Source: a bacterium (GTDB lineage Bacteria > Pseudomonadota > Gammaproteobacteria > Burkholderiales > Thiobacillaceae). Taken from it: a DNA stretch of 34,926 bases. Both the position numbers and the translations under genes were made by a program. Numbering within the stretch: position 1 is the stretch's first letter; the number at the start of each line of letters is the position of its first letter. Below, piece after piece: positions 7,532-13,439 of the stretch. Under the pieces are notes generated by a model. That model made no database searches. It was not told the origin of the DNA and saw only the letters and a program-made list of their open reading frames with translations. The stretch is taken from NCBI GenBank assembly GCA_009772925.1, contig WOUQ01000021.1, positions 1 through 34,926 on the forward strand, in the 5' to 3' direction.

Positions 7532-7745
7532 GTTGGAGGGGCGGGAATCGGCAAAGCGCGCAGTTTAGCAACGGGCCGTTTTCCTGTGCGGGCATTTGCC
7601 GTTTTTCCGCGCAATCGCGCGCTCCCGGATGATTCCGGAGCCGGCGTCGGATTACGAGCTATCTTGAGAGTAGCCGGACGCAACACGCTCCGACACGACA
7701 AGAGGAGGCGGTAGGCCCACACCCCAAGGACTCAAGGAGGACATC

Positions 7746-8417
7746 ATGAAAGTCAGAAAGCTCGTTTCTGGCGCCCTGATCGGCGCCCTTACCCTATTCG
7801 CCGCCACATCTGCCGCCGCCGCCGGCAACGCGCAGGCGGGGTCGACCAAATCCATGTTCTGCGCCGCCTGCCATGGCATAGATGGCAACGTGCCCTACCT
7901 CAGCACACGCCTTGCCGGCCAGTCCACCGCCCGCTTCCATGACAGCATGATGGGCTTCAAGGCTGGCCGGCGCGTTCACCCGGTGATGAACATCCTGACC
8001 CTGGGCCTTACCGAGCAGGATATTCGCGATCTGGGCATGTTCTATGCCAGCCAGAAACCCGCCGATCTCAAGGATGCCAGCCTCTATTGGCGCCTGGGCG
8101 GTTCGGGTGCCCTCGGCGCGGCAGTGGATGAAACCATCAAGCTGGCCAAGGCCGATGCCCGCCTCGCGGGCCGTCTTTCCGGCGGTTGCGCCAGCAAGCT
8201 GAAGGAACAACTGTGCGCCGCCACCGGTGGCCCCTGCACCTACACCGGGCGCGACATGAAAGCCGCCCATACCGGCATGAAGATTACCGAGGCCGAGTTC
8301 GCAGCGGTGGGCGAGAACTTGGTGAAGGTGCTGGATGCCTTCAAGGTGCCGGAAAAGGAGAAGAGCGAGCTTCTGGGTTTGATCCTGCCGCTGAAACCCC
8401 AGATCGTCGGGCAGTGA
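7746..8417 (+). CDS. Exported cytochrome c fused to group 1 truncated haemoglobin
   Basis: A 223-residue protein with two haem domains. A signal peptide (about 1-26, ending ATSAAAA) directs it across the membrane. Residues about 28-107 are a class I cytochrome c: the haem attachment motif is CAACH (Cys39, Cys42, His43) and the probable sixth ligand is Met81 (HPVMN), before LTEQDIRDLGMFYASQ. From about residue 111 the sequence becomes a group 1 truncated haemoglobin: LYWRLGG, CAATGGPCTYTGRDMKAAH with proximal His175, then a helix ending GLILPLKPQIV. The usual Phe-Tyr pair in helix B seems replaced by Thr130-Ile131. A role in periplasmic O2 or NO chemistry is inference. A strong ribosome site (AGGAGG) precedes the ATG. 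A hairpin follows the stop, so the gene may be monocistronic. Confidence 0.8.
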   Translation: MKVRKLVSGALIGALTLFAATSAAAAGNAQAGSTKSMFCAACHGIDGNVPYLSTRLAGQSTARFHDSMMGFKAGRRVHPVMNILTLGLTEQDIRDLGMFYASQKPADLKDASLYWRLGGSGALGAAVDETIKLAKADARLAGRLSGGCASKLKEQLCAATGGPCTYTGRDMKAAHTGMKITEAEFAAVGENLVKVLDAFKVPEKEKSELLGLILPLKPQIVGQ

Positions 8418-8425
8418 GCGACGCC

Positions 8426-8453
8426 CATGGGTCGGCCCCGAGGCCGACCCATG
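8426..8453 (+). terminator. Hairpin after the cytochrome-globin gene
   Basis: A perfect 11-bp stem (CATGGGTCGGC / GCCGACCCATG) with a six-base loop begins nine bases after the stop codon. It is not followed by a T-run, so termination strength is uncertain. Confidence 0.6.
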
Positions 8454-12840: not shown

Positions 12841-12889
12841 GTTCTCCTCGCCGGTAGGATGATCGGTAGTATTGTGCATAGGAATAATT

Positions 12890-13114
12890 ATGCTTGTTGA
12901 AAAACTCTCCATCTCCCTGACTCCGGACAGCGTGGCTTTCATCGAAAGCTATCGGGAATCCCACGCCATCAAGAGCCGTTCCCAGGTGGTGGAACTGGCC
13001 TTGCGAAAGCTGCGCGAACAGGAACTGGAAGCGGCCTACCGCGAAGCCTCCGGCGAGAACGACCCGGCCTGGGAACAGACCGCCGCGGATGGGCTGAACG
13101 ATGAAGCGTGGTGA
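12890..13114 (+). CDS. Ribbon-helix-helix antitoxin
   Basis: A 74-residue protein with an N-terminal ribbon-helix-helix DNA-binding fold (VEKLSISLTPDSVAFIESYRE, then SRSQVVELALRKL) and an acidic C-terminus that would neutralise the toxin. The ATG at 12890 is preceded by AGGA. It overlaps the MazF-like gene by 14 bases, the classic antitoxin-first order. It probably represses its own promoter, which must lie in the 49 bases between it and the divergent reductase. Confidence 0.85.
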   Translation: MLVEKLSISLTPDSVAFIESYRESHAIKSRSQVVELALRKLREQELEAAYREASGENDPAWEQTAADGLNDEAW

Positions 13115-13439
13115 CATCTACTACGCAGACCTGAACCCCACGGTGGGTTCCGAGATCAACAAACGCCGGCCCGTCCTCATCGTCAGCAACAACGCCAACA
13201 ACCGGGCGGCCAATACGGTGACGGTGCTCCCCATCACCTCCAACATCGCCAAGGTGTTTCCCTTCGAGGTCGCGCTCTCCCGCGAGGATTCCGGGCTGAC
13301 CAAGGATTCCAAGGCCCAGGCCCAGCAGATACGCACCATCGCCAAGGAACGCATCGCCGGGCAGCCGGCGGGCTACCTCAAGGAGGAAAAGATGCGATCG
13401 GTGGACGCGGCCATCCGGCTCCACCTGGCCCTGGCCTGA
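13101..13439 (+). CDS. MazF/PemK-family toxin endoribonuclease
   Basis: A 112-residue toxin of the MazF/PemK family, which cleaves mRNA at short sequences. Diagnostic segments are MKRGDIYYADLNPTVGSEI, the KRRPVLIVSNN strand and the VLPITSNI region. Conserved Arg (RRP) and Thr/Ser (PITS) residues correspond to the usual active site. It is translated from within the end of the antitoxin gene. Confidence 0.92.
   Translation: MKRGDIYYADLNPTVGSEINKRRPVLIVSNNANNRAANTVTVLPITSNIAKVFPFEVALSREDSGLTKDSKAQAQQIRTIAKERIAGQPAGYLKEEKMRSVDAAIRLHLALA

Follow-up and report, generated by a model that had tools for sequence, protein, structure and literature searches.

The locus described here raises the question whether a truncated haemoglobin has been joined to a c-type cytochrome in a single exported protein, and what such a protein would do. 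The gene lies in a stretch of 34,926 nucleotides (the window) from a bacterium of the family Thiobacillaceae. A preliminary description, made from the letters alone, had proposed a signal peptide, a class I cytochrome c with the motif CAACH and Met81 as a plausible ligand and, after almost no linker, a group 1 truncated haemoglobin with His175 as proximal ligand, all encoded by a gene with a strong ribosome site and transcribed alone. The features of the gene and of its N-terminal part are the following.

7734-7740, + strand: ribosome site AAGGAGG, 5 nt before the ATG (from sequence)
7746-8417, + strand: cytochrome c–truncated haemoglobin fusion gene, open reading frame of 223 amino acids (Pfam, PDB, Foldseek, genome survey, dN/dS)
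7746-7823, + strand: signal peptide, residues 1-26, by eye (basic start, hydrophobic core, SAAAA|G)
7824-8063, + strand: class I cytochrome c domain, residues 27-106, resembling one half of cytochrome c4
7860-7874, + strand: haem c attachment motif CAACH, residues 39-43 (C39, C42 and H43 in 14/14 fusions)
7986-7988, + strand: Met81, likely second axial ligand of haem c (14/14 fusions; aligned with a Met of 8uf3 domain 1)
8426-8453, + strand: perfect 12-bp inverted repeat with a 4-nt loop, 8 nt past the stop codon, no T run

The AAGGAGG sequence bears out the strong ribosome site. The terminator scan called no terminator at the inverted repeat behind the gene, and uvrA (open reading frame from 8501) follows on the same strand. 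Transcription of the fusion gene on its own agrees with the pattern of neighbours across the loci, the flanks being short in several of them. In five comparisons dN was 0.14-0.37 as against a dS of 0.82-1.16; the gene is under purifying selection. Among the 14 fusion proteins found in the survey described below, 52 residues are invariant, haem ligands included, at identities down to 43%. Elsewhere in the window a PemK/MazF-like toxin gene was noted at 13101-13436 (Pfam 2.6e-32), overlapped upstream by a small open reading frame (region 12872-13436) of antitoxin-like appearance, which had no Pfam match. A weak DDE transposase match, below cut-off, occupies the left contig end (1-531). PADLOC returned no defence-system match.

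The signal peptide, judged by eye, makes export of the protein likely. None of residues 1-26 is invariant in the 14 fusions, and G27 is. The following domain is c4-like by PDB search: phmmer found cytochrome c4 (8uf3) with an E value of 1.4e-14 for the whole chain and one of 1.4e-9 for the better-matching half, aligned to residues 35-106. Further matches include other c4, c552 and c554 proteins. With the Pfam model Cytochrom_C the window protein scored 17.8 bits over residues 37-95, below the cut-off of 21.3, and three of the five other fusions scanned scored above it (L064, L066 and L067, not L009 and L055). The NCBIfam matches to cytochromes were weak and all below their cut-offs; among the weak matches was the model of the dihaem shuttle PdsA (23.7 bits, cut-off 330). 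The whole protein contains one CxxCH. By alignment the haem ligands would be His and Met, and covalently bound haem c is a candidate cofactor. The window's own genome carries CcmF, a cytochrome maturation gene.

The C-terminal half has the following features.

8079-8414, + strand: group N (group 1) truncated haemoglobin domain, residues 112-223 (Pfam, PDB, Foldseek)
8268-8270, + strand: His175, proximal haem ligand F8 (14/14 fusions, 49/49 stand-alone rows)

The Pfam family Bac_globin matched residues 114-218 (E 1e-6, 29.3 bits, cut-off 21), the PDB sequence search found group 1 truncated haemoglobins over residues 112-222 (E 1e-13), and Foldseek, run with the predicted model, which contains no haem, placed HbN of Mycobacterium tuberculosis first (TM 0.80 by target). 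H175, G118-G119 and G161-G162 are invariant in the 38 rows of alignment A1. About five residues separate the matched cytochrome and globin stretches of the window protein, and in L066 and L067 there are six fewer columns between them. The model based on alignment A3 was good in the globin, with ten-residue pLDDT means of 80-95 over residues 111-220; A3 misplaces the gap of the CD region inside helix E. When the gap was correctly placed (A4) the model was poor (pLDDT 57.9, pTM 0.35). Residues 1-49 of the predicted model, CAACH included, have pLDDT values below 50, which was counted against reading the protein as a two-haem redox protein. The domain architecture originally proposed is borne out, and the protein is probably exported.

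To see how widely the fusion occurs, genomes of the family, the order and the phylum were searched. The whole fusion was present in 14 of 117 genomes of the family (E 1e-35), the window's own among them: 12 belong to the window's genus, represented by 23 genomes, and one each to two other genera. It was found in 4/399 genomes of the order sample, all from the same genus, and in 1/398 of the phylum sample, namely the window's own; no fusion outside the genus appeared in either at E 1e-35. The two samples overlap, and the best few candidates per genome were scored. Within the samples searched, therefore, the fusion is found in one family only. It was not found in 11 of the 23 genomes of the genus, four of which are at least 98% complete, so it is dispensable. 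A search of genome contigs for related loci gave 46, of which seven (L009-L015, the same records as L056-L062) are whole fusions and 39 match through the globin part; among the latter the alignment begins earlier in L019 (residue 51) and in L047 and L048 (residue 78). There was no CxxCH in the 48 open reading frames that match from query residue 90 or later to beyond residue 200, nor, by eye, in L019. Carriage on plasmids was considered and rejected: of 58 matching plasmid records none covers more than 80% of the query.

Where the two halves came from was approached with trees. The globin tree, read without a root, comprised 63 domains (14 fusion, 49 stand-alone). The 14 fusion globins form one side of a branch with support 98/91, next to the lipoprotein-like globins of the genus, among them L002 of the window's own genome (96/95). 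Because of this neighbourhood the globin half was most likely derived from the exported globin of the lineage itself. The cytochrome half is 52% identical, over residues 11-105, to a monohaem protein of the same genome (L003, C20:113908). In trees of the cytochrome halves (31 and 26 rows) the 14 halves formed one clade in 0% of the bootstraps, and a single clade was not rejected (p-AU 0.42). Since these trees neither show nor reject a single clade, it is the globin tree alone that speaks for a single fusion event.

Gene neighbourhoods tied the fusion to no substrate in the 14 loci. No neighbour is common to all, several flanks being only about 1.5 kb long. Downstream, uvrA was seen in the window and in L055; ruvC is common to L009, L011, L013 and L014. 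In 6/14 loci a convergent open reading frame of about 700 amino acids with a BTAD domain, of transcriptional activator type (L014:5679-7793), lies downstream on the opposite strand, adjoining the fusion in L010, L012, L013 and L014 and at a greater distance in L009 and L015. Next to the window's fusion gene no sulphur gene turned up. On another contig of the same genome (C4, L083:1559-3186) a flavoprotein gene and a small cytochrome c gene resemble, by eye, a flavocytochrome c sulphide dehydrogenase; roughly 5 kb separate them from the gene of the lipoprotein-like globin. SoxB scored above its cut-off in the window's own genome and in 13/14 fusion genomes, and a link with Sox was rejected, as SoxB did so in 100/117 genomes of the family. 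A link with denitrification was likewise rejected. The window's own genome has proteins with a cytochrome d1 domain, and in a search over the 23 genomes of the genus such proteins (E 1e-100 or better, a cut picked by eye) occurred in 8/12 genomes with the fusion and in 7/11 others, showing no association.

The preliminary description had drawn attention to helix B, where it placed Thr130-Ile131 instead of the usual Phe-Tyr pair and took this as a sign of altered ligand chemistry. Comparison of the haem pockets drew attention to other residues.

8187-8189, + strand: Cys148, distal position E7 (14/14 fusions, 0/49 stand-alone rows)
8196-8198, + strand: Lys151 at E10, possible endogenous distal ligand (residue comparison of fusions)
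8214-8216, + strand: Cys157 (E16), possible disulphide partner of Cys164 (14/14 fusions)
8235-8237, + strand: Cys164 (EF loop, GGPC; 14/14 fusions)

The positions of Thr130 and Ile131 (B9-B10) were correctly assigned and the B10 residue is as described; as a trait of the fusion it fails, since all 49 stand-alone relatives compared lack Tyr at B10 as well. It agrees with the hydrophobic B10 of the TrHbN-2 subgroup, in which B10, E7 and E11 are hydrophobic (PMC11904497). The real peculiarity of the fusion, judged from the aligned residues and absent from the earlier reading, lies elsewhere in the pocket: the Cys at E7, the loss of Phe at CD1 and the frequent Lys at E10. Position E7 is Leu in 37, Phe in seven, Ile in four and Met in one of the stand-alone rows. 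All 14 fusions have Leu or Ile at CD1, a position held by Phe in 36/49 stand-alone rows, and E10 is Lys in ten fusions, Gln in three and Met in one. B10 is Ile or Leu and E11 is Leu throughout the fusions; the polar distal net of part of group N (Tyr B10 with Gln E7 or E11) is absent from all 14. As the fusion globins descend from one lineage, the change at E7 counts as one event that was kept, not as 14 events.

The register that assigns Cys148 to E7 was checked by three means. Stand-alone L017 aligns without gaps to HbN of Shewanella benthica, in which Val42 is E7, Met45 is E10 and Cys51 is E16 (PMC11904497), and its residues 1-112 align without gaps to residues 14-125 of M. tuberculosis HbN. 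When the fusions (A2) were aligned with the stand-alone globins (A5) by hhalign, a four-residue gap fell just before Gly147, with Cys148 opposite E7. Four residues are missing from the CD region in the 12 fusion proteins of the genus; L066 and L067 are without this deletion, yet have Cys at E7. In A1 and A3 MAFFT had put the gap elsewhere; the shared C-x3-L-x3-L-C was the reason for treating this as a misalignment. Positions in B and CD were counted at a fixed distance from the domain start, so that in rows with inserts the figures for CD1 are approximate. The residue counts and the globin tree were made without L032, which a text pattern had missed, without the fragments L052 and L054 and without L008-L015, which repeat other rows.

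The other two cysteines go together. In the stand-alone rows Cys157 and Cys164 are both present in 40, both absent from seven, and in two Cys157 (E16) occurs alone; this co-occurrence suggests that they may form a disulphide. The E16 Cys of S. benthica HbN is too distant from the other Cys of that protein (F10) for a bond (PMC11904497), and the second Cys of the fusion sits elsewhere than F10. As to Cys148, it could ligate the iron. The endogenous ligands named in PMC11904497 sit at E10, which makes Lys151 its rival; such a ligand may give a six-coordinate haem and ease the steps of electron transfer (PMC11904497). A search of the open-licence literature yielded no truncated globin with a distal Cys.

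How the protein compares with known systems can now be stated. The joining of globin and cytochrome had been presented as unusual, and here the earlier reading has to be corrected: cable bacteria are reported to contain exported pentahaem cytochromes with terminal truncated haemoglobin domains (lPHCtX, tHgb-PHC), for which a role as oxidase was suggested (PMC11976967), a suggestion repeated in PMC13047784 (Kjeldsen 2019, as cited there and in PMC11976967). Truncated haemoglobin is also named in the O2 reduction of cable bacteria in PMC12093952 and PMC11247825. According to PMC11976967 the composition of multihaem cytochrome and globin has been shown only in cable bacteria. Like the fusion, lPHCtX combines a periplasmic c-type cytochrome with a truncated globin and is proposed to pass electrons to O2. 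It differs in having a pentahaem ExtKL-like domain with one or two globins, whereas in the fusion a single class I haem c is paired with a single globin; the proteins come from different bacterial groups and are likened by architecture, not by globin sequence. No version with a class I cytochrome was found in the open-licence literature. With S. benthica HbN (8ugz) of the TrHbN-2 subgroup the fusion shares the fold, the F8 His, hydrophobic B10 and E11 and the Cys at E16; it differs in its signal peptide, cytochrome, Cys E7 and Leu/Ile CD1 and, in the genus's proteins, in having four CD residues fewer. The tree neighbours, such as the lipoprotein-like L002 (C4:109099-109470), share the Cys157/Cys164 pair; L002 lacks a cytochrome and has Phe at E7. 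Cytochromes c4 and c552-c554 and L003 have the CxxCH and Met pattern without a globin.

The reading we favour, at a probability of about 0.5, is an exported, soluble two-haem redox protein of the periplasm in which the cytochrome exchanges electrons with a globin haem acting on a small molecule. The N-terminal domain would be a His/Met class I haem c carrier and the C-terminal group N globin would bind haem b through His175, and the very short linker would make the cytochrome the built-in electron partner of the globin haem. Haem c would exchange electrons with the periplasmic cytochrome pool and pass them over the short link to haem b, which would carry out redox chemistry on a small molecule, in the simplest case reduction of O2 or NO. 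The Cys at E7, the Leu or Ile at CD1 and the frequent Lys at E10 would probably serve electron transfer, not O2 storage, by tuning the iron or ligating it. We infer that two haems are bound, that electrons pass between them and that Cys148 or Lys151 ligates the iron; direct transfer between cytochrome and globin, as proposed earlier, is plausible. A hydrophobic pocket is associated with a low affinity for O2, which suits transport and storage (PMC11904497); for the globin family in general this argues for storing or carrying as its role. Because the fusion has a built-in donor, redox work on a small molecule is preferred for it. As for the substrate, reduction of O2 or NO would be the simplest guess, and the most daring one would be sulphur chemistry.

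If the globin haem were closed by Lys151 or Cys148 and no outside ligand were in use, the protein would be a pure electron carrier, a small two-haem shuttle resembling a cytochrome c4 in which a globin has replaced one of the halves. The closeness of the first half to one half of cytochrome c4, the weak PdsA match and an E10 residue able to ligate iron (Lys or Met) in 11/14 proteins fit this; Gln, a poor ligand, stands at E10 in the other three, and a globin is an unexpected fold for a protein that does no more than carry electrons, so that we regard this as possible, though improbable. The apolar pocket, without Tyr B10 or Gln E11 and with a low O2 affinity to be expected from PMC11904497, would also suit a periplasmic gas sensor or scavenger, in which O2 or NO bound to haem b alters the redox state of the cytochrome or its partner without turnover. 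This is unlikely, given that the protein has no output domain and the fusion loci no common neighbour. The failure to find it in 11/23 genomes of the genus and the four missing CD residues of its 12 proteins are what one might expect of a decaying or chance fusion with no function, an explanation contradicted by the selection seen in all five dN/dS comparisons and by the 52 invariant residues and hardly credible in consequence.

The boldest alternative takes Cys148 as the centre of an enzyme. The thiosulphate dehydrogenase TsdA has two CxxCH motifs and both its haems in a cytochrome c fold, unlike the fusion, which has one CxxCH and whose haem b would sit in a globin. The likeness is therefore one of analogy only, in the layout of two haems, one His/Cys (haem 1) and one His/Met (haem 2 in Campylobacter jejuni) (PMC6879331). 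Here Cys148 would ligate ferric haem b opposite His175, as in TsdA haem 1; thiosulphate, sulphide or a thiol would displace it or bond to it, and electrons would leave through the fused His/Met haem c. More generally, the Cys at E7 would be an iron ligand or a covalent catalyst acting on sulphur or another thiol-reactive substrate. Its presence in every fusion and in none of the 49 relatives speaks for such a role; the SoxB matches in the fusion genomes point the same way, yet are little informative in a family where SoxB is so common. The endogenous ligand of truncated globins in PMC11904497 is at E10, not E7, the window shows no sulphur gene beside the fusion, and the TsdA model is absent from the NCBIfam matches, so that both forms of this proposal are best treated as long shots. 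Were it true, TsdA-like chemistry would have arisen independently on the globin fold in sulphur-oxidising bacteria.

Other fused globins turned up among the related loci. Lipoprotein-like truncated globins of Myxococcota carry a C-terminal cupredoxin-like region (L021:4854-6245, L018:2180-3583, L038:4875-6230), and L022 and L032 have open reading frames similar to this type by eye. The C-terminal region had cupredoxin or copper-binding Pfam matches below the cut-offs (E 0.01-0.02), and a CarboxypepD_reg match, also below cut-off, scored better. For one such region all ten PDB matches at E values up to 10 (best 0.0011) were blue-copper proteins or copper nitrite reductases, and the three regions aligned all retain His, Cys, His and Met. 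These proteins are perhaps a further case of an exported truncated globin joined to an electron carrier. In two proteins of Planctomycetes (L047:4644-5753 and L048) two tandem truncated globin domains follow an N-terminal region with a signal-like start; the Cys pair of E16 and EF is absent from both.

The fusion is thus real and belongs to a rare but known kind of architecture, of which the version with a class I cytochrome is new; cytochrome-globin fusions extend beyond cable bacteria. Because the covalent link fixes the electron partner, the question of what the globin does with electrons is directly testable in one small protein, and it is the Cys at E7, invariant among the 14 fusions, that deserves an experiment. 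In a sulphur-oxidising bacterium such a protein could supply electrons directly to an extracytoplasmic haemoglobin or draw them from it.
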